Part shown: positions 16,064 through 26,929 of the stretch, in pieces
Layout: each line of letters opens with the position of its first letter
How positions within the stretch are numbered: the first letter of the stretch is position 1
DNA from: an uncultured Opitutia bacterium
Lineage (GTDB): Bacteria; Verrucomicrobiota; Verrucomicrobiia; Opitutales; Opitutaceae
NCBI GenBank assembly: GCA_903861185.1
Contig: CAIOTK010000506.1
Location: 1 to 41,821, forward strand
Direction: 5' to 3'
Length of the DNA: 41,821 bases
The notes under the pieces: model-generated
What the model was told of the DNA's origin: nothing
The model's database searches: none
The model's input: only the letters and a program-made list of their open reading frames with translations
Program-made: the position numbers and the translations under genes

Positions 16064-17664
16064 CCCTCCTCACGTTCCTCTTTTTCACCGGCCTCGTCGG
16101 GTTCCTAACCTGGCTCCTGACGCGGGGCGACGACCACCGGACCACGACCGGTTACTTTCTCGCGGGCCGAACGCTGACCGGCGGGTACATCGCGGGTTCG
16201 CTGCTGTTGACGAACATCTCCACCGAGCAGCTCGTGGGCCTCAACGGCGCTGCGTTCACCGACGGTCTCGCCGTGATGGCGTGGGAGGTGATCGCGGCCA
16301 CGGCGCTGGTCGTGATGGCACTGTATTTCCTACCGCGATTCCTCCGCAGCGGCATCACCACCGTGCCCGAGTTCCTCGAGACAAGGTTCGCCGGGCACAC
16401 CCGCGCCATCACCACGGTCATCTTCATCGTAGCCTATGCAGTAATCCTGCTGCCCATCATTCTTTACACCGGCGCCACCGGCCTGATGGGCATTCTCGAC
16501 CTGCACGCGATCACAGGGATTCAAGACGTGACCACTCTGCGCTGGGTCACGGTGTGGTTCATCGGCATTGTTGGCTCGCTCTATGCGATCTTCGGCGGCC
16601 TTCGCTCGGTAGCGGTCTCGGATACCCTAAACGGATTCGGTCTGCTCGTGGGCGGCGTGCTCATCACTTGGTTCGGCCTGCAGGCCGTGAACGGCGAGGG
16701 GGCCTTAGCGGCACTGCGGGACCTGCGCGCCGCACACCCGGAGAAGTTCAATTCCCTTGGCGGCGCGACTTCCTCCGTACCCTGGCACACGCTCCTTAGT
16801 GGGGTACTGCTGCTGAATCTGTTCTATTGGACGACCAATCAGCAGATCATCCAACGCGCGCTCGCCGCGCGGAGCCTGCGCGAGGGTCAGCGCGGCGTGT
16901 TGCTGGCAGGCTTTTTCAAGGTGCTGGCCCCACTCGTGCTCGTCCTGCCGGGGATCATTGCGTTCCACCTATATGCCAAGCAGGGACTAAAGCCCGACGA
17001 CGCCTACGGCACACTGGTGAGCCGCGTCCTGCCGCCCTGGCTGACCGGTTTCTTCGCCGCGGTGATCGCAGGGGCCATCCTGAGCTCTTTCAATTCGGTG
17101 CTTAATTCCACCGCGACCCTCTTCTGCCTCGGTTTCCACCGAGTGGGAGCGGGCGGTGCGGCGGCCGAGGACGCGCGGGTGATCCGTCGCGGCAAGGTGG
17201 TCGGCACTGTGGTGGCGGTCTTCGCGATGATCGCGGCCCCGCTATTGGCCGGGCAGGACAGCATTTTCGGGTACCTGCAACGAATGAACGCACTGTACTT
17301 CATCCCGATCTTTGCCGTGGTGCTCGCCGGATTCCTCTTCCGCCGGGCACCCGCGTGGGCCGCGAGCACCGCGCTCGTCGCTGGCTGCGGCATCCTGCTC
17401 CTCGGCTATTTCGTCCCGCCTTTCTCCGGTTGGGCTGCGCAACTGAACGGATTCCACTTCATCGGCCTGGTTTTCCTCGCTCTGATGCTATTTCAGTTCC
17501 TCGCCGGGGTCGTTGCGCCACGGACGGAGCCGTGGGAACACCGCGCATCCGGCGACGTCGATCTCACCCCTTGGCGCTGGGCCAAACCTGTCGGCTACGG
17601 ACTCGTCGCTTTCGTGGCCCTGCTGTATCTCTCCTTCGCGGACTTCTCGGTTCTCTCCCGCTAG
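16060..17664 (+). CDS. Sodium/solute symporter (SSS family), probable galactose/glucose transporter
   Basis: A 534-residue inner-membrane protein with about fourteen hydrophobic segments, of the SLC5/SSS family. The LLLTNISTEQLVGLNG segment near the end of the first core helix corresponds to the ANISAEQFIGMSG sugar- and sodium-site region of the Vibrio galactose transporter vSGLT. Length is close to vSGLT (543). The start at 16060 overlaps the galK stop (ATGA). A longer frame from 15844 lies inside galK and is not used. Coupling to galactokinase makes galactose (or a related hexose) the most likely substrate, symported with sodium; this is inference from context plus the site motif. The next gene, a sialate O-acetylesterase-like enzyme, follows after 13 bp. 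Confidence 0.93.
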   Translation: MTLLTFLFFTGLVGFLTWLLTRGDDHRTTTGYFLAGRTLTGGYIAGSLLLTNISTEQLVGLNGAAFTDGLAVMAWEVIAATALVVMALYFLPRFLRSGITTVPEFLETRFAGHTRAITTVIFIVAYAVILLPIILYTGATGLMGILDLHAITGIQDVTTLRWVTVWFIGIVGSLYAIFGGLRSVAVSDTLNGFGLLVGGVLITWFGLQAVNGEGALAALRDLRAAHPEKFNSLGGATSSVPWHTLLSGVLLLNLFYWTTNQQIIQRALAARSLREGQRGVLLAGFFKVLAPLVLVLPGIIAFHLYAKQGLKPDDAYGTLVSRVLPPWLTGFFAAVIAGAILSSFNSVLNSTATLFCLGFHRVGAGGAAAEDARVIRRGKVVGTVVAVFAMIAAPLLAGQDSIFGYLQRMNALYFIPIFAVVLAGFLFRRAPAWAASTALVAGCGILLLGYFVPPFSGWAAQLNGFHFIGLVFLALMLFQFLAGVVAPRTEPWEHRASGDVDLTPWRWAKPVGYGLVAFVALLYLSFADFSVLSR

Positions 17665-17677
17665 AACCCTACCGCCC

Positions 17678-19201
17678 GTGCCCTGCCTCGCCCGCTATTT
17701 GCTGCTCCTAGCGTTGGCGACACCCCCCCTGATCCGCGCCGAAGTGCGGCTCGGCACGCCCTTCCAAGATCACGCTGTGCTCCAGCGCGAACGGCCGGTG
17801 CGGATTTGGGGCTGGGCCCACCCCGGAGAACGCGTGCGCGTCACCTTGGGGGAACTGCCACCCAGCATGACCAACGCGGATCCCACTGGGCGCTGGGACG
17901 TCACGCTCCCGGCGCTGCCCGCCAGCCTCGCCCCGCGCACCCTCTCGGCGGAAGGCAGCACCCGCGCCTTCGCCCGGGACGTGCTGGTCGGCGAGGTCTG
18001 GCTGGCCGCGGGGCAATCCAACATGGAATGGCGCCTGAAATCCGCCACCGCCGGCGAGGCCGACCAAGCGGCCGCTGACTTCCCCGCCATCCGACAGCTC
18101 AAGGTGGCCCGCAACCCCCGGAGCGAGCGGCAGACCGAGGCGGCCGCCGCGTGGAGCGTCTGTTCCCCCTCGACCGCCGGGGACTTCTCGGCCGTCGGCT
18201 TTCACTTCGCCCGGGAGCTGTGGCTGGCGCTGCGTGTTCCCATAGGGTTGATCAACTGCTCGCACGGCAACAGCGCGGTCGAGGGTTGGATGAGCCGCGA
18301 GGCACTCGCGGCGGATCCCGCCTTCCGAGGGGTGGCGGACCGTTGGAACGAGGTACTGGCGCGTTACCCCGCCGCGCGTGAACGCCACGAGGCAGCGCTG
18401 CAGCGTTGGGACAAGGAGGCGGCGGCCGCGCGCGCCCGCGGCGCGAGCCCGCCGAACCGTCCCGCGGCCCCTATTGGTCCTGGTCATCACCAAGAGCCCG
18501 CGGCGCTCTTCAACGGGATGATCGCGCCGGTTTTGCCCTACGCGTTACGCGGGTTCCTCTGGTACCAAGGAGAGGGCAACGCGCGCCGCGCGGGCGAGTA
18601 CGAGCGCCTTTTTTCCGCCTTAATCGGGCAGTGGCGGCACGACTTCCAGGCCGCGGATGCGCCCTTCTTTTGGGTCCAACTTCCCGGCCTTGGTCGGATG
18701 CCGCCCACGACCACGCCCGATGACTGGGTGGCACTACGCGCCGCGCAGACTGCCACTTTGGCCCTGCCCGCGACCGGCCAGGCAGTGACGATCGACGTGG
18801 GGGATCCGGCAGACATTCATCCGCTACGGAAGCGCGAGGTCGGCGAGCGATTGGCCCGCTTGGCGCGGCGCCGCGTGTACGGGGAATCCATCCTAGACGA
18901 AGGGCCCAGCCCGAAGTGGGTTCAAAGGAGCGGCGCTTTCGTGGAGATAGAGTTCGTCCACGCAGCGGGCGGGTTACGGATGGGGGGCGCGCCCGACCGC
19001 GCCTTCGAACTGGCGGGGCCAGAGGGTCGGTTCGCGGCCGCCACGGAGATCGTGATGATCGCCGAAAACCGACTGCGATTATCCGCTCCGGGAGTCGATC
19101 GACCCGCGCACGTCCGCCACGCGTGGCAGGCACTCCCCGCCGGCTGGTTGCTAAACGCCTCAGGTCTGCCGACCCCGCCCTTCTCGCTCCCAGTGGACTG
19201 A
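17678..19201 (+). CDS. Sialate O-acetylesterase-like secreted esterase
   Basis: A 507-residue secreted SGNH-type esterase. The GTG at 17678 gives the signal peptide (VPCLARYLLLLALATPPLIRA); the frame is open further upstream to 17513, but that part overlaps the symporter gene. Diagnostic motifs of the sialate O-acetylesterase family are present: EVWLAAGQSNMEW with the nucleophilic Ser, GFLWYQGEGNA, and the catalytic Asp-x-His in GDPADIHPLRKREVGERL. In Verrucomicrobiota and Bacteroidota these enzymes often deacetylate plant or algal glycans (for example acetylated xylan) rather than sialic acid. Co-orientation with the symporter and galK suggests one unit that deacetylates a glycan, imports the freed hexose and phosphorylates it. 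The substrate is inferred. Confidence 0.9.
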   Translation: MPCLARYLLLLALATPPLIRAEVRLGTPFQDHAVLQRERPVRIWGWAHPGERVRVTLGELPPSMTNADPTGRWDVTLPALPASLAPRTLSAEGSTRAFARDVLVGEVWLAAGQSNMEWRLKSATAGEADQAAADFPAIRQLKVARNPRSERQTEAAAAWSVCSPSTAGDFSAVGFHFARELWLALRVPIGLINCSHGNSAVEGWMSREALAADPAFRGVADRWNEVLARYPAARERHEAALQRWDKEAAAARARGASPPNRPAAPIGPGHHQEPAALFNGMIAPVLPYALRGFLWYQGEGNARRAGEYERLFSALIGQWRHDFQAADAPFFWVQLPGLGRMPPTTTPDDWVALRAAQTATLALPATGQAVTIDVGDPADIHPLRKREVGERLARLARRRVYGESILDEGPSPKWVQRSGAFVEIEFVHAAGGLRMGGAPDRAFELAGPEGRFAAATEIVMIAENRLRLSAPGVDRPAHVRHAWQALPAGWLLNASGLPTPPFSLPVD

Positions 19202-19226
19202 CCGCCACGGGCGTATTCAGCCGGGC

Positions 19227-20123
19227 TCAGTGTCCGCCCTGCAGGAACGCTTGGATCCGCGGGACGAGCTCCTCGCGCGCGTCTTCCAGCACGTAATGGC
19301 CGGCGTCCGCGAGCCGGTTCACGGCGGCCCGCGGGAAGAGCTCCCGCCAACGCGCCAAGAAGGTGTCGTCGAAGCAGAAATCCTTCCCACCCCAGTTAAT
19401 CTCCATCGGATGATCGCGCAGCCGTGCGAGGCCCGCCTCCACCGCGACCAGCGCCGCCCAGCTCGGGTGCGAAGGAGCCAGCGGGATATCGCGGACAAAC
19501 CCGTGCACCGCGGCGCGATCGGCCCAAGTCTGGTAGGGCCACAGATAGCCGCGGCCCACCTCTCGCGACAACGGCCGACGATGCACCGCCATCCATGTAG
19601 CCGGCCACGCGAACCCATTGGCTCCGCGAACCAGCAGCGCACCCAACCCCGGCACGCGGCACAGGGCGATCCGCGCGGGTATCCGTCGCGAACGGAACGC
19701 GGCGGTGTTGAGTACCACTATTCGCCCCACCCTTGCCGGATTCCGTCCGGCCCAACCCATCCCGATCGCCCCACCCCAGTCGTGCACGACCAGATGCACC
19801 CGACGCAGGCCCAGCGCGTCCACGAGACCCGCTAAGTCCTCGATCCGCCGCGCCAGCGGCCGCGGACCGCCCGGGGTGAGATCCGAAAGGCCCATCCCCA
19901 GGTGGTCGGGCACAATGCAGCGCAGTCCGGGCGCCAGAGCCCGCACGAGGTGCCGGTAGTAATAGGACCACGTCGGGTTGCCGTGGACCATCAGCACCGC
20001 CTCGTCCCCGCGCGGGCCTTCATCGAGGTAACTCAGCGCGTGGCCGTCGGCCGTGCGGTGGCGGCGCGGGGTGAACGGGTATTCGGCCCGCAGCCAGTCG
20101 GGAAGCGCGGCCGGGCTCACCAT
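19227..20123 (-). CDS. oleB: OleB-type alpha/beta hydrolase (beta-lactone decarboxylase)
   Basis: A 298-residue alpha/beta hydrolase of the haloalkane-dehalogenase superfamily. The oxyanion element HGNPTWS (47-53), nucleophile Asp115 in VVHDWGG and catalytic His276 in DAGHYVLEDA are present. Beyond these shared motifs it carries the extended OleB pattern: VLNTAAF, VRGANGFA, LWPYQTW, FVRDIPL and NWGGKDFCFDD. OleB decarboxylates the cis-beta-lactone made by OleC to give a cis-olefin, the last step of head-to-head hydrocarbon synthesis. Its ATG overlaps the end of oleA by 7 bp, so it is translationally coupled to it and is the last gene of the eight-gene operon. No OleC or OleD follows; the next gene is convergent. 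A true dehalogenase is less likely given the neighbour. Confidence 0.9.
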   Translation of the reverse strand: MVSPAALPDWLRAEYPFTPRRHRTADGHALSYLDEGPRGDEAVLMVHGNPTWSYYYRHLVRALAPGLRCIVPDHLGMGLSDLTPGGPRPLARRIEDLAGLVDALGLRRVHLVVHDWGGAIGMGWAGRNPARVGRIVVLNTAAFRSRRIPARIALCRVPGLGALLVRGANGFAWPATWMAVHRRPLSREVGRGYLWPYQTWADRAAVHGFVRDIPLAPSHPSWAALVAVEAGLARLRDHPMEINWGGKDFCFDDTFLARWRELFPRAAVNRLADAGHYVLEDAREELVPRIQAFLQGGH

Positions 20124-21142
20124 TCGAGCGCGAGCATCAGGCAGTTGAGGCCGCTCCCGATGCCGAGGAGGGCAACGCGATCCCCGTCGCGCACGGCGCC
20201 GGCTTCGACCGCCGCCGCGAGCGTGGCGGGCAGTGCGGCAGAGCCGGTGTTACCTAGGGTCTCGAACGTGGAGAAGTCGCGGGCGAGGTCGAGGCCGAGG
20301 GCCTCGTAGAGGCGGCGGCGATGGACCGAGCCGACCTGATGGCAGATGATGCGATCGAACGCGCCCCCCTGGGCGGCCGAAAACTCGCGCCACGTCTCGC
20401 GGGCCAGTTCGACGCCGGCCACCAGCAATTCCTCGGAGTCGGTCTGCATCGCCAGCGCCTCGCGACCGTGGTGATCACCCTGGCAGAGCGCGTTGTGATG
20501 CGTGGCGGCCCGGGCCACGCCGCCAAGCAGGCGGTGCGGCCGGCCGGTGACGAGAGAACGGTGGCAAACGACGGCAGCCACGGCGGCCGACCCGATCGTG
20601 AGGTTGGCGAAGTACGGCTTGATCTCCTGGCGCGAGAGCCCGGGGGCGTTGAGCGTCCGCAGCGTTTCCTCCACCAGCGGCCGGCCATTCTCACCCGCGG
20701 CGACCAGCGCGCAACGAATCTGGCCCGACTGGATCATCGCGGCCGCGACGGTCAACGCGTTGAGAAAGCCGAGGCAAGCGTTTGACAGGTCGAAGATCTG
20801 CGCCGAGTCGGGCAAACCGATGAGGCGATGGGCGAAGGCAGCCGTGGCAGGCTCCAGCATATCCCGGCTGACGGCAGCGTGGATAAAAAGTTCGACCTGG
20901 GCCGGGACGAGACCCGAGCGCGCGAGGGCCGCGCGGCCCGCAGCGGCGCTGGCGGCGGAAGCGCGGGTGCCAGGGGGCCACATCCGACGCGAGCGGATGC
21001 CCGTCATCAGTTCCAATCGGCCGGCGGGGAGGCGCAGTCGGGTGTAAAGTGGCTCCAGCCGCCGCTCGATCTCCGCAGAGGTCAGCTCCTCATCCGGCAG
21101 CGCAGTCGCCAGCGACTCCAGACAGACATCCGTGAAATTCAT
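20117..21142 (-). CDS. oleA: OleA-type thiolase (acyl-CoA/acyl-ACP head-to-head condensing enzyme)
   Basis: A 341-residue thiolase-superfamily protein. OleA condenses two activated fatty acids by non-decarboxylative Claisen condensation to a long beta-keto acid. The catalytic set is complete: Cys123 (SNACLGFLNA), His268 (CHQVGSVH), Asn298 (LGNTGSAALP), and, distinguishing OleA from FabH, Glu97 in SRDMLEPATA. The spacing Glu-Cys (26) and His-Asn (30) equals that of Xanthomonas OleA (117/143 and 285/315). The family-specific ending LLGIGSGLNC is present. The ATG at 21142 (MNFTDVCLESL) is 8 bp after the fabI stop; a frame extension to 21199 overlaps fabI and is rejected. Because it sits behind an ACP and type II fatty-acid enzymes, its acyl donors may be made by this same operon. 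Confidence 0.93.
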   Translation of the reverse strand: MNFTDVCLESLATALPDEELTSAEIERRLEPLYTRLRLPAGRLELMTGIRSRRMWPPGTRASAASAAAGRAALARSGLVPAQVELFIHAAVSRDMLEPATAAFAHRLIGLPDSAQIFDLSNACLGFLNALTVAAAMIQSGQIRCALVAAGENGRPLVEETLRTLNAPGLSRQEIKPYFANLTIGSAAVAAVVCHRSLVTGRPHRLLGGVARAATHHNALCQGDHHGREALAMQTDSEELLVAGVELARETWREFSAAQGGAFDRIICHQVGSVHRRRLYEALGLDLARDFSTFETLGNTGSAALPATLAAAVEAGAVRDGDRVALLGIGSGLNCLMLALEW

Positions 21143-21150
21143 TCCGGGAC

Positions 21151-21957
21151 TCACGGGCGCATCGCCAAACGGACCACGTCCTGATCGAACGTATTGCACG
21201 CTAAGCCGGCGTCGACGACCACGGTCGTGCCGTTAAGCCCGCTGCTGCGGGGGCTGAGCAGGAACGCGGCCACGTCGGCCACCTCCTGCGTCGCGACGCT
21301 CCGTTTCCGGAACGTCAGTTTTTCCGCGTAAAGGTAGCTTTCCAGGTAGCCGGGGATTCCCGCGGAGGAGCTTGTGCGGAGGGGGCCCGCCCCGACGACA
21401 TTGAAACGAACCGCGGAGTCGGCACTGAAGGACTTAGCAAGGAAACGCGCGCAGGACTCCAGCGCGGCCTTGATCGGGCCCATATAACCGTAGTTGGCAG
21501 GCGTGACCTGCAGCGACGAAATGCCGATCGTGACCACCGAGGCGTCGGACGCGAGGAGCGGCTTGAGCGCACGCGACAGCTCGACCAGCGAGAACGCGGA
21601 GATGGTGGTCGCCTGCAGGAAGTCGGCCCGGCTCGTCTCATGGAACGGCTTAAATCCCTCGCGGTAGTTGGCGAAGGCGATCGAGTGGACCACGCCGTGC
21701 AGCGGGCCGACGCCGGCAGCTTGCAACTCCACCGCGAGACGGGCGGCCGCGCCGTCCTCCTCCACGTCGCAAACGAAAGCCGTCCGGTCACCGAGGAGCG
21801 CTGCCAGCGACTGCCGGCGCGCGGCGGAGCGTACGCTATACACGACCCGCGCTCCCTGCTCCTCGAGGGTGCGCGCGATATGCCACGCGACGCTGCGCCG
21901 GTTGGCGATGCCGGTGACCAGCACCGTGCGGCCGGCCAGCTGCAGAAAATCGCTCAT
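21151..21957 (-). CDS. fabI: Enoyl-ACP reductase-like SDR (FabI type, variant active site)
   Basis: A 268-residue short-chain dehydrogenase of the FabI branch, expected to reduce enoyl-ACP with NAD(P)H. The FabI-type cofactor motif TGIANRRSVAW (15-25) replaces the GxxxGxG of other SDRs. Tyr156 and Lys163 (NYGYMGPIK) align exactly with E. coli FabI Tyr156/Lys163, and AGPLRTSSSAGIPGY matches the substrate-loop region. Position 146, normally the second conserved Tyr of FabI, is Ile here (TIGISSLQ). That makes it a divergent member whose substrate or reaction may differ. Start and stop overlap neighbours: ATGA with fabZ upstream, and only 8 bp to oleA downstream. It is part of the ketosynthase-ACP-FAD-FAD-fabZ-fabI-oleA-oleB operon. 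Confidence 0.85.
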   Translation of the reverse strand: MSDFLQLAGRTVLVTGIANRRSVAWHIARTLEEQGARVVYSVRSAARRQSLAALLGDRTAFVCDVEEDGAAARLAVELQAAGVGPLHGVVHSIAFANYREGFKPFHETSRADFLQATTISAFSLVELSRALKPLLASDASVVTIGISSLQVTPANYGYMGPIKAALESCARFLAKSFSADSAVRFNVVGAGPLRTSSSAGIPGYLESYLYAEKLTFRKRSVATQEVADVAAFLLSPRSSGLNGTTVVVDAGLACNTFDQDVVRLAMRP

Positions 21958-22406
21958 GAGGCGGGGGCGCTCGCTGGGGCCTTCCAGGCGACGGCGAATT
22001 CGAGCGAAAGGATGCGCACGCCGTCTTCACGCCGGATCGATCCCGCGAGCATCGTGAAACCGCCGAGGGCATCCTTCTCCTTTACCTCCAGCAGAACCCG
22101 GTCCCCCGGGTATACCGGATGGCGAAATCGCACCTCGGAAATCTTCGCGATGAGCGGCAGCCCCTCGCCGGGGGCCGCGCCGGCCTCTCGCGCCTTAAGG
22201 GCCATATAGCAGGCGGCCGCCTGGAACACGGCCTCGCACAGCAGCACCCCGGGGGTGATGGGCGCGCCCGGATAGTGCCCCTTGTAGAAATCCTCCTCCG
22301 CCCGCCACGTCCGGCGAGCCACTAGGGTGCCGGGCCCCCGGCTGACGATCTCGTCGACAAACAGGAACGGGGGCCGGTGCGGGATCAGGTCGGTGACGGC
22401 GGTCAT
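21954..22406 (-). CDS. fabZ: 3-hydroxyacyl-ACP dehydratase (FabZ type)
   Basis: A 150-residue hot-dog-fold dehydratase. It would convert 3-hydroxyacyl-ACP to trans-2-enoyl-ACP. The opening [14 protein letters not shown] is the FabZ hallmark. Catalytic His44 ([15 protein letters not shown]) and Glu58 ([10 protein letters not shown]) are 14 residues apart, as in characterised FabZ. Length is normal (about 145-155). The start overlaps the stop of the second FAD oxidoreductase as ATGA (22403-22406), and its own stop overlaps the fabI start as ATGA (21954-21957), so all three are translationally coupled. No ketoreductase (FabG) is present in the operon, so one from central metabolism would be needed to supply its substrate. 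Confidence 0.93.
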
Positions 22407-23848
22407 AACGCGGCGGCACGCTTTTCCGCGTGGAGAGCCTTGTCGATCCTGTTCGCCACAATGACCCCGTAGTTGATCGTGCCGAGCCAGCCGGACATAA
22501 TAATTCCGACGGAACCGGCGTGGAAGAGGCCCGGCAGCTGGTCTGGCAGGTCCATCGAGACCTTCAGCCCCTCAAATTTGGTGCCGAACGAGGTGCCCGC
22601 CCAGTGGGTCGTATAGCGTTCGATGGTCCGCGGCGTGGCCGCCTCACGCCAGTCGATCTTCGCCCGGACGTCGGGGATGTAGCGCTCGAGCGCAGTGATC
22701 GACTCCTCAATAAGGCGCTCCTTGGCGCGGGCATACTCCGGATCGGGGAGACCCTGCCAGTCCTCGTGGCGGGCGTTGAGGGAAACCACAATCGCGTAGC
22801 GGTCGGCCCCGGGGCGGGTGTCCGGGTAGTAGACCGAGAAAGTGCGACTGGTGGTATCGAAAGCGGTCAGCTCGCCGCTGCTGAAGCGGGGCGCGGCCGA
22901 GGTGAACACGAGGTCGCCGATGTGTGGAATGGATTCTCCGCGGCGGATGCCGAGGTAAACCTGGCATGAGCTGGAGTTGACCCGCACCGCGCGGGCGGCC
23001 GCAAGGTAGTCGGGGGCGAGGTGCTCCTCGCCGGCGAGGCGGAACAGGGTCGTCTTGAGGTTGGCGTTGGAAAGGATGGCCTTCGCGCGGATCACCCGTC
23101 CGCCTCGGGCGACGATGCCGGCCGCGACTTTCCTCCCGTCGCGCTCCTCGACCAAGATGCGTTCCACGAGCACCTTCTTGCGCAGCTCGACCCCGTTGCG
23201 GCGGAGCTCGTCCACCATCTTCGCGATCAGCTGGTCGGAACCACCCCGGAAAGTATAGACTCCGGAGCCCATGAAGTTCGAGAAGACGATCCCGTAGGTG
23301 ATCGCAGGGTCCTCGGTAGTCGAGCCATTGGCGTAGGCAATGGGCTCCATCAGCAGCCGCTGCACATCATCCCGCCCGGGGAAGAAGCGGTTAAACATCT
23401 CCCCGGTGGTCTCGCGATGATCGTCGTAGAAGTTCATCCCCCGCAGGTGCTCGTAGAAGGCCTCAACCTGCGCCCGCGGGACCCCGAAAGACTCGACCAG
23501 CACGCGCGTATAATCGTCGCGCGTGAAAGTCGTGCGGACGTCCATCTGGGGATTAACGAAGCGGATGTCCCGCAAGGGCACGATCGCCTCAGCGATCTCC
23601 CGGGACCAATATTTACGGCAACTCTTAATCATCCCGCTGGGGAAACCGTGCAGGGAGATGTCGAAAATGTGACCGCCGCGGCGAGTGAACCAAGTAGCTA
23701 AGCCGCCGAACTGGTAGTGGTGCTCCAGCAGCAGCACGCGGTGGCCGGCCTTCGCAAGGACGTTCGCCCCGGTGAGGCCGCCCAAGCCGCTGCCGATCAC
23801 GATCACGTCGTATTCGTCCGCCACCCCCTTGAGCCAATCGTAAGCCAT
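22403..23848 (-). CDS. FAD-dependent oxidoreductase, phytoene desaturase/RetSat-like (second copy)
   Basis: A 481-residue flavoprotein of the CrtI/retinol-saturase-like amine oxidase superfamily. The N-terminal Rossmann motif [21 protein letters not shown] is followed by the acidic ribose-binding Glu ([11 protein letters not shown]). The C-terminal FAD motif reads [23 protein letters not shown]. CrtI-like enzymes insert, reduce or isomerise double bonds in polyenes; here the ACP, FabZ and FabI neighbours make a fatty-acyl chain a more likely substrate than a carotenoid. The ATG at 23848 ([15 protein letters not shown]) is used; an upstream extension to 24247 overlaps the previous gene. Its stop overlaps fabZ (ATGA). 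It is only distantly similar to the first copy, so the two probably do different steps. Confidence 0.85.
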
Positions 23849-23913: not shown

Positions 23914-25344
23914 TCAGCCGCGCTGCAGGATATGGTGGTTGGCCATCGAGATGCCGCTCAGCATCGCGCCGACAATTCCGAGAAAGCCCTGATCCGTACC
24001 GCAGAGGTACACGTTGGGGGCGGCGGTAAGGCCCCGGCGATGCTTCATCCCCGAACCGTAGACCGCGCCCCGCTGGTGCCCGGTGAAGCGCGTGATGGTC
24101 CGCGGGGTGAACATATCGGTCGCCACGGTCACCGCCGCGAGCTCCGCATCCGACACCGGGGGCAGGAACCGCCGCGCGCTCGCCTGCACCACGCCAAACC
24201 ACTCCTGCTTCCGGGCACGGTACTCCGACTCCGGCCACGCCATCCAATCCTCGGGCCGCGCCAGAGAGGTCACGCGGAACCAGCCCTCGGCCAGCGCCTC
24301 GCCCGGTTCGTAAGCAAAGTTGTTCGGAAGGCAGATCACACCGCTGCGGACGTCCACCGGCGCCGACGGGCAGGCGTAATCGAAGCTCCGGCCTTCGTTG
24401 AAAAACACGATGGTGTCCCCGGACCAGCCCAGCGCAGCGGGGGGGCGGTCAAGGACGCAGATCGTCTCAACAAACGAGAGCCGCCCAGGCTCCGTCGGCC
24501 GGGGCGTCGGCAGCCCTCCAGCGGACAGCAGGGACTCGGTTTCCGGGGCACCGATTGAGGACAGGACGTGGTCCGCGGTAATCACCGCCCCGTCGTCGAG
24601 CTCGACCCCGGCAGCACGCCCCTCCCGGAGCACGATGCGGCGTACGCCACACTTCATCCGGCGTTCACCGCCGGCCTCCCGGTACTTCGCCAGCAGCACC
24701 CGCAGAATGCGACGCACGCCTTCGGCAGGGCGGGCGAAACCCTCGAGGAAGAGGGCTTTGAAGAGGATCACGAACTGGCTGAAGTCCATATCCCGCTCGG
24801 TCGGACTGCCGTAGAACATCACCGGGCAGAACAGCATATCCTCCAGCAGCGGATCCGTCAGGTGGCGACGAACCACCTCCCGGGCGGAGGTGGGGGCCGC
24901 GTCGAGGGAAACTTCGTCGTGGGCTCGGACCGCGGCGACAAGGGCGCGGAAGCCATCGATCTGCGCCGGGAAGGCACGGGCGACCTCGGCCTCGAGCACC
25001 TGGAAATCATTGGTGAAGCGCAGGTCCGCCGCCCCTGGGCCGAACGCAATACGCGAGCCGAGCTGCCCCCGCAGCGCGAACTCTTCGCGGTCGATGCGGA
25101 GCTGGCGGAGGAGCTTGGTAAGCGGCGTCCCCTTGACGCCTGGCGGCACGTAGTTGGTGAGCGCGTGGAGCCCGACGTCGTAGCGTCGCCCCTCTCGGCT
25201 ATAGAAACCGTTGAGCCCACCGACGGCGTTATGCCGCTCAAAGATACAGACCTGACGGCCGAAGTGGGCTAGGCGAATCCCGGCGGCGAGGCCCGCCATC
25301 CCCGCTCCGATGATGACCACGTCGTAGTGGGAGCGGGAGTTCAT
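23914..25344 (-). CDS. FAD-dependent oxidoreductase, phytoene desaturase-like (first copy)
   Basis: A 476-residue flavoprotein with N-terminal dinucleotide-binding motif [21 protein letters not shown] and the following ribose-binding Glu ([15 protein letters not shown]). The CrtI-like C-terminus reads [20 protein letters not shown]. The middle (about residues 120-330) is the variable substrate domain. The family catalyses desaturation, saturation or isomerisation of conjugated chains; no exact role can be assigned. The ATG at 25344 ([10 protein letters not shown]) is used; the frame runs to 25512, but that part overlaps the ACP gene. An intrinsic terminator-like hairpin ends only 15 bp before this start, so its expression may be lower than that of ketosynthase and ACP. 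The second FAD gene follows after 65 bp. Confidence 0.85.
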
Positions 25345-25408: not shown

Positions 25409-25672
25409 TCAACCCTTGGCGGGCAACGCGTTGAACTTGGGCGTGAGGTACTCCGCGCAACTGTCGAGCGAGGCCAGCTGCAGGTAGTCCGCCTCCGGGA
25501 CCTCAATCCCATGGCGCTTGCGCAACTCCATAACGATATCGAGGAAGTCCATGCTATCGAGCTGGAGCTGGTCGCGAAGCCGGACCTCGGACTTGACGTT
25601 GGTCAAGTCCTCGTCGGGGGCGATGTCGGCGATGATGTCGAGCACCACCTTCTTGCAGTCGTCTTTGGTCAT
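25409..25672 (-). CDS. Acyl carrier protein
   Basis: An 87-residue acidic four-helix carrier protein. The phosphopantetheine attachment site is LDSMDFLDIV with Ser40; the usual DSL is DSM here. The flanking pattern (ADIAPDEDL... LRDQLQLDSMDF... FGI-like HGIEVPEADYLQLASL) is that of type II fatty acid/polyketide carriers. It is 18 bp after the ketosynthase stop, the classic FabF-ACP pairing, and ahead of the FAD enzymes. It is likely a dedicated carrier for this pathway rather than the housekeeping AcpP, which normally sits beside fabG/fabF. It would need a 4'-phosphopantetheinyl transferase encoded elsewhere. Expression may exceed that of the downstream genes because of the terminator that follows. 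Confidence 0.92.
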   Translation of the reverse strand: MTKDDCKKVVLDIIADIAPDEDLTNVKSEVRLRDQLQLDSMDFLDIVMELRKRHGIEVPEADYLQLASLDSCAEYLTPKFNALPAKG

Positions 25673-25690: not shown

Positions 25691-26929
25691 TTAGGGGACA
25701 AAGCGGCGAACAATCAATGTGGAATTTATCCCCAGCATACCGAACGAGTTGTTTAGGATCGTATCGACGTGCGCCACCTTCCGGGGCTGGTTGAGCACCA
25801 GGCCGGGGATCGCGCATTGGGGATCCAAGTCGTCCACGTTGATGGTGGGGTGGACCGTGAGGTCGTCGAAGCTGGGTAGGTTGCCAGCCAGTTCGAGCGC
25901 GCCGGCGGCCCCCATCGTGTGCCCAATGAAGCTCTTGGTGTTGTTGATGTGGGTGTCGGGGCAACCTTCGCCAAAGACGGCGCGGATCGCCTCGCACTCC
26001 TGGATGTCACCCAACGGGGTGGCGGTGGCGTGGGTGTTGACGAGGTGGATGCCGGCGGGAGCGAGGCCGGCGCGCGTCAGGGCGGCACGGACGCACTCGG
26101 CCTGACGCTGGGGGTTCGGCAGCACGTAATCGCTGGCGTCGCTATTCACGTGATAGCCGGCGATTTCCCCGTAGATTCGGGCGCCGCGGGCGCGGGCATC
26201 CTCGAGGCGCTCCAAGGTATAGAGGCAGCCCCCCTCGGAAATCACGATACCATTACGGGCCTTGTCGAAGGGCCGCGAGGCGCGCGCAGGCTCAGCGTGG
26301 GTGGCGAGGGCGTTCTGCGACTTAAAGCCCGCGAAGATACCGAAGGTATGGATGCTCTCGCTCACCCCGCCGCAGAGCGCGAAGTCCACTTCCCCCAAGC
26401 GGAGCATCTGGGTGGCGTGGATCAGTCCCATATTCCCCGCAGCGCAGGCAGCGCCAATCGTGTAGGCGGGGCCGGTGGTGCCAAGGTTCAGCGAGGTCTC
26501 CCCGGCGGGGTTGTTCGCGACCGTCCGGGGGTTATGGTAGTGGGACCAAAACTTGGTGTCGTAGTTGAACTTGGAGATGTTGTAGACCTCGTTCTCCGTC
26601 TCGACGTTACCGTGCTCGGTGCAGCCGATGTAGATCCCTACGCGATCCTTCCGCAAAGCGTCTAGGCTGACGCCGGCATCGGCAAGTGCCTCCCGGGCAC
26701 AGTAGATCGAGATGCTGCCGGCCCGGGTTCCCACCCGCAGCTCCTTCTTCTTCTGGTACCGCAGGGCGTCGTAGTGACAGACCCCGGCTAGCTGGCTGCC
26801 CATATAGCGGACGTCGATCCGCTCGATCCCGGCAACGCCGGTCAACAGATGCCGACGGAATTCAGGCAGCGAATTGCCGTTCGGGGCGGTCAGACCGACG
26901 CCGGTGATGACGATGCGGGAGAGCTGCAT
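25691..26929 (-). CDS. fabF: 3-oxoacyl-ACP synthase (FabF/KAS II type)
   Basis: A 412-residue beta-ketoacyl synthase that elongates acyl-ACP with malonyl-ACP. The Cys-His-His triad is intact: Cys162 in GAACAAGNMGL, His in VNTHATATPLGD and His in NTKSFIGHTMGAAGALE. The start (ATG at 26929, MQLSRIVITGVGLTAPNG) matches family usage; a longer frame to 27109 has an unrelated arginine-rich head. Sequence around the gate and loops (for example KARNGIVISEGGCLYTLE) differs from housekeeping FabF, which suggests a specialised ketosynthase with its own ACP. It is the first gene of the eight-gene operon and lies opposite a small membrane protein gene across a 268-bp divergent region containing an inverted repeat. 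Confidence 0.92.
   Translation of the reverse strand: MQLSRIVITGVGLTAPNGNSLPEFRRHLLTGVAGIERIDVRYMGSQLAGVCHYDALRYQKKKELRVGTRAGSISIYCAREALADAGVSLDALRKDRVGIYIGCTEHGNVETENEVYNISKFNYDTKFWSHYHNPRTVANNPAGETSLNLGTTGPAYTIGAACAAGNMGLIHATQMLRLGEVDFALCGGVSESIHTFGIFAGFKSQNALATHAEPARASRPFDKARNGIVISEGGCLYTLERLEDARARGARIYGEIAGYHVNSDASDYVLPNPQRQAECVRAALTRAGLAPAGIHLVNTHATATPLGDIQECEAIRAVFGEGCPDTHINNTKSFIGHTMGAAGALELAGNLPSFDDLTVHPTINVDDLDPQCAIPGLVLNQPRKVAHVDTILNNSFGMLGINSTLIVRRFVP

Follow-up and report, generated by a model that had tools for sequence, protein, structure and literature searches.

Organization of the operon

Genes at the locus were assigned by open reading frame (ORF) and family-model searches. 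The window, a single stretch of DNA of 41,821 nucleotides, contains an operon of eight co-directional genes on the minus strand in the order FabF, ACP, CrtI2, CrtI1, FabZ, FabI-like, OleA, OleB, with oleB as its final gene (Table 1). Gaps between successive genes from FabF to OleB are 18, 64, 65, −4, −4, 8 and −7 bp, the last being a 7 bp overlap of oleA and oleB; spacing of this kind would be expected for a single transcript. Scans for promoters and terminators gave nothing above chance. The esterase gene that follows is convergent with oleB and the two stop codons are 25 bp apart; position 19202 is the first intergenic base and not the end of oleB, which lies at 19227. An earlier note on this DNA had described oleB as closing the operon ahead of a convergent esterase, and both the ORF coordinates and the PF03629 match agree with that description. 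It had also described oleC and oleD as missing from the operon, and neither is among the eight genes identified.

The start of oleA was placed at 21142, the ORF list having a longer form to 21199, and the start of CrtI1 was chosen from the sequence MAYDWLKGV, which is conserved among relatives. The true start of the esterase lies further 3′ than the ORF given. Some relatives carry an extra DUF3300 gene between CrtI2 and CrtI1 (L142:8457-9914), and in several the gene upstream of the operon FabF is divergent and encodes a GalE-like epimerase (L073:2542-3534, L142:4258-5247, L134:5656-6648).

Table 1. Coordinates of the operon genes and the convergent esterase gene in the window
Gene or product	Position	Strand	Assignment and supporting models
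oleB	19227..20123	-	298 aa; alpha/beta hydrolase of haloalkane-dehalogenase type, predicted beta-lactone decarboxylase; PF00561 and HLD models
oleA	20117..21142	-	head-to-head condensing thiolase; NF006720
FabI-like enoyl-ACP reductase	21151..21957	-	PF13561 and FabI models; catalytic Y156/K163 present
FabZ-like 3-hydroxyacyl-ACP dehydratase	21954..22406	-	PF07977, NF000582
CrtI1, CrtI/carotenoid-isomerase-type FAD oxidoreductase	22403..23848	-	best matches TIGR02730/TIGR02733/TIGR02734, sub-threshold
CrtI2, second CrtI/CrtD-type FAD oxidoreductase	23914..25344	-	PF01593, TIGR02730
Dedicated acyl carrier protein (ACP)	25409..25672	-	PF00550; DSM phosphopantetheine site
FabF-type ketosynthase	25691..26929	-	intact Cys-His-His; TIGR03150, 310 bits
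SASA-type esterase	17513..19201	+	PF03629; convergent, outside the system, marks the operon end

Assignment of OleA and OleB

OleA scored 430 bits on NF006720 against a cut-off of 285 and aligned over its full length with the Xanthomonas OleA structures 3fk5 and 3row (residues 3-341). The published signature EPxx[AS]x(14,18)DxxNACL, which takes in the partner-subunit Glu and the catalytic Cys (PMC7158056), is present at residue 97. Residues E97, P98, C123, H268 and N298 were invariant in 67/67 homologues. This is the sole such protein in the genome, and no OleA was found on plasmids.

The nucleophile D115, acid D248 and base H276 of OleB, together with N49 and W116, were invariant in all 67 of its 67 homologues. 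The predicted fold matches that of the subfamily III haloalkane dehalogenase 8ooh with a TM score of 0.82. The family-model scan gave no dedicated OleB model for the oleB product. Its predicted activity is decarboxylation of a cis-3,4-dialkyl-beta-lactone to a cis-olefin.

Fatty-acid synthesis and CrtI-type genes

Catalytic motifs are kept in the ketosynthase, ACP, dehydratase and enoyl reductase of the operon. FabF contains AACAAG, NTHAT and GHTMG, the ACP has its DSM motif within a sequence of 93% mean column conservation, and Y156/K163 of the FabI-like enzyme are invariant among homologues. The predicted fold of CrtI1 (pLDDT 76.8, moderate confidence) resembles carotene/phytoene desaturases and flavin amine oxidases, the top match being the carotene desaturase 4rep with a TM score of 0.69.

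Related loci were collected using CrtI1 as the query and the best 80 were listed, all of Opitutales/Opitutaceae type by record title and including the cultured Opitutaceae bacterium EW11 and IMCC26134. The full eight-gene order was found in 30 of these 80 and the order CrtI1-FabZ-FabI-OleA-OleB in 50, most of the others being truncated at a contig end or rearranged. In addition, 57 genomes of the order were searched and tallied for OleA, OleB, OleC, OleD and CrtI1; the relatives compared are non-independent samples.

The simplest reading of the operon is that the acyl chain used by OleA would be supplied by the fatty-acid synthesis (FAS) and CrtI-type enzymes encoded with it, with FabF, ACP, FabZ, FabI and the two CrtI-type enzymes making the chain that OleA would condense. 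This chain is probably unusual and, by analogy, perhaps polyunsaturated. A role of these genes in feeding OleA is favoured by the retention of CrtI1 in step with OleC even in genomes where it is unlinked from oleA. A different explanation, that the FAS and CrtI genes are mere neighbours unrelated to the Ole pathway, with a polyene or membrane lipid of their own as product, is suggested by the 18 genomes in which CrtI1 is unlinked from oleA, lying more than 10 kb away on the same contig in 5 and on a different contig in 13, by the use of ordinary acyl-CoA as OleA substrate in known systems and by the presence in the operon of its own ACP. The conserved gene order, with genes overlapping or nearly so, argues against it, as does the absence of CrtI1 exactly where OleC is absent (near-complete genomes: 41 with both, 4 with neither, 0 discordant), and we regard it as rather unlikely.

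Location of oleC and oleD

Across the 57 genomes, both oleA and oleB are found in 49, side by side in 46 of them, and both oleC and oleD in 48, side by side in 33. The genes oleA and oleC are both present in 49/57 genomes and are less than 10 kb apart in none; only 5 genomes have them on one contig, at separations of 25 kb, 26 kb, 1.8 Mb, 2.2 Mb and 3.2 Mb. No OleC or OleD relative of at least 40% identity was found in the best 80 related loci listed, with up to 10 kb of flank. Four genomes from four families (G040, G042, G043 and G051; 93-98% complete) have no OleA, OleC, OleD or CrtI1 and have either no OleB relatives or weak ones only. Fisher p values for genomes at least 90% complete, which ignore phylogeny and serve as a guide only, were 3e-5 for OleA-OleC and 7e-6 for CrtI1-OleC. 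Two genomes have partial sets: G053 (95% complete) has OleC, OleD and CrtI1 and lacks OleA and OleB, which may reflect assembly loss or a real partial loss, and G009 (89% complete) has OleC and OleD and lacks OleA, OleB and CrtI1, gaps that may be due to assembly loss.

The metagenome-assembled genome (MAG) to which the window belongs comprises 514 contigs totalling 4.02 Mb and is 93.9% complete. An N-terminal oleC fragment of 117 codons is located on contig C249 (L064:1-351), behind which lies a ribonuclease D gene. The fragment has a start codon and its frame is open to the last base of the contig. It scored 110 bits over 112 model positions, with PRK09274 and two NCBIfam olefin beta-lactone synthetase models as best matches. 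It is identical to the intact OleC of the close relative G007 at 113/118 positions (96%) and is 73% identical to OleC of another genus relative. The order RNase D-oleC is common to this genome, G007, G009 and several more genus members.

The closest relatives, G007 and G014, carry an intact oleC followed directly by oleD at a locus separate from oleAB. The score of G007 OleC on NF006754 was 613.6 bits, against a cut-off of 478. OleD of the same genome matched NF042422 best, over the full length, at 349 bits, below the cut-off of 580 of this Xanthomonas-type model. OleD and OleC do not reach the cut-offs set for the NCBIfam models specific to Xanthomonas/Shewanella.

oleD was not recovered in the fragmented MAG by searching PF01073 matches or with a bona fide OleD query. 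The best PF01073 match (contig C396) reads as a sugar-nucleotide epimerase beside a GlgC-like gene, and the candidates found with the OleD query had at most 35% identity, so none was accepted. In some genus members oleD is flanked by an rRNA methyltransferase gene; the copy of that gene in this genome (contig C314) adjoins a MoaA-like gene and therefore the oleD-flanking neighbourhood does not transfer. In the sister genome G021 (73% complete), oleC likewise extends no further than its first ~118 codons (L065:2717-3070, contig C116), and there is no oleD. Contigs C249 and C116 both break within oleC, at about codon 117-121, and the near-identical break points may mark a sequence that resists assembly.

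These data bear out one proposal of the earlier note, that oleC and oleD are encoded elsewhere, through the oleC fragment of the genome itself, the intact oleCD of G007 and G014 and the separation of oleA from oleC throughout the order. The note had added that an intact oleCD pair elsewhere in the genome would make this an ordinary split pathway; such a pair is present in the two relatives, and in the MAG itself oleC stops short at the end of a contig and no oleD was recovered. We conclude that oleB very probably ends the operon because the Ole pathway is encoded order-wide as two loci, oleA-oleB and oleC-oleD. The missing oleC and oleD are an ordinary split pathway combined with an assembly gap, in which the remainder of the oleC of this genome sits, and an operon with oleAB and without oleCD does not amount to new chemistry.

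The halt of oleC at 117 codons and the failure to find oleD in a MAG that is 93.9% complete, repeated in G021, could also be read as a variant route in which oleC is a real remnant, oleD has been lost, OleA together with the operon reductases yields a ketone or some other product, and OleB has a different substrate. Both oleC fragments reach the final bases of their contigs in open frame, and were thus cut by assembly and not by a stop codon; in addition, G007 and G014 carry the intact pair and OleB retains all its catalytic residues, which makes this route very improbable. A route fed by the operon ketosynthase or reductase, and a ketone end product with another role for OleB, both raised in the earlier note, are unneeded.

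The identification of oleB as such rests on predicted fold, residues and genomic context. In its fold and in key features OleB is said to lie close to the haloalkane dehalogenases, as reportedly found by Christenson and colleagues in 2017. That the hydrolase is instead a haloalkane dehalogenase or generic esterase merely located after oleA is scarcely credible, for although the curated models and structures that match it best are those of haloalkane dehalogenases, this likeness is to be expected of OleB because published work places OleB beside that family, and the gene adjoins oleA in 46/49 genomes of many families and is missing together with oleA, oleC and oleD in near-complete genomes.

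Proposed pathway

The Ole reaction steps are those of the literature; what was observed here is which genes are present, how they are split and co-occur, and that the catalytic residues are kept. In the two-locus pathway, OleA from this locus would condense a pair of fatty-acyl chains head to head into a 2-alkyl-3-ketoacid. The ketone would be reduced by OleD and the beta-lactone closed by OleC, both encoded at the other locus. OleB from this locus would then decarboxylate the lactone to a long-chain internal olefin.

Comparison with known systems

The OleA, OleB, OleC and OleD proteins are homologous to those of the oleABCD systems known from Xanthomonas, Shewanella and Micrococcus (PMC7064751, PMC7158056), and they show the catalytic residues and match the family models to be expected of them. 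In published oleABCD surveys oleB, oleC and oleD lie near oleA, whereas here oleAB and oleCD are split and oleAB is joined to an operon of type II fatty-acid synthesis (FASII) and CrtI genes. Unclustered ole matches were discarded or uncounted in those surveys (PMC7064751, PMC7158056), and surveys demanding oleB, oleC and oleD within a few kb of oleA would miss an entire bacterial order. The occurrence of ole genes in Opitutae is already known: OleA was found there (PMC7064751), and oleABCD was described as a class-specific trait of freshwater Opitutae MAGs and called one operon (PMC5673642). The latter genomes are of the same lineage, and the MAG Tous-C8FEB among them carries the same operon (L093, CrtI1 97% identical); in contrast to the single operon of that account, in none of the 49 genomes here did oleA and oleC lie within 10 kb. 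No description of the two-locus arrangement or of its tie to FASII/CrtI genes was found in the literature examined, which did not cover a 2010 survey, and an earlier description may exist.

The dedicated fatty-acid genes are the less ordinary feature of the operon and are worth following. A dedicated fatty-acid assembly line likewise stands beside the ole genes in the pfa-ole system (Shewanella; PMC4882568), and in Geobacter bemidjiensis the pfa genes stand in tandem with the ole genes (PMC4882568). That system is a megasynthase, whereas the present operon encodes discrete FASII enzymes and CrtI-type flavoproteins. PfaA was rejected as the source of a polyunsaturated chain, no TIGR02813 match above cut-off being found in the genome. 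Several large ORFs with polyketide synthase (PKS) ketosynthase matches, apparently modular polyketide synthases, are present on contigs C169, C398, C361, C363 and C92 of this MAG.

How polyunsaturated hydrocarbons are made without Pfa has been a question since Desulfotalea, in which no known PUFA genes occur, was found to make C31:8 and C31:9 hydrocarbons; its FASII clusters include phytoene-desaturase-like genes (PMC2649909). The anammox genes kuste3604-3608 bring together FabZ, FabF and a phytoene-desaturase-like protein that does not desaturate phytoene (PMC4790861). ACP, FabF, FabZ and phytoene-desaturase-like flavoproteins are common to the operon, the anammox 'ladderane' candidate clusters and their syntenic counterparts in Desulfotalea (PMC2649909, PMC4790861). 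The likeness is one of gene content, and the operon differs in having oleA and oleB and no radical SAM gene: among the components of a ladderane-type cluster, FASII and CrtI-like genes are present, and no match to the radical SAM family was found among the eight operon products.

The link of oleAB to FASII/CrtI genes, which is conserved across Opitutaceae, provides a compact candidate for polyunsaturated hydrocarbon synthesis without a Pfa synthase. Tentatively, and with some doubt, the operon may be a Pfa-independent line in which the CrtI flavoproteins would desaturate or isomerise acyl-ACP and OleA would lead the chain to a long-chain polyunsaturated hydrocarbon; such operons would then also be the Verrucomicrobia clusters that genome miners call 'ladderane'. 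Clusters so named are well represented in Verrucomicrobia (PMC7298704), and the operon may be one source of those calls.
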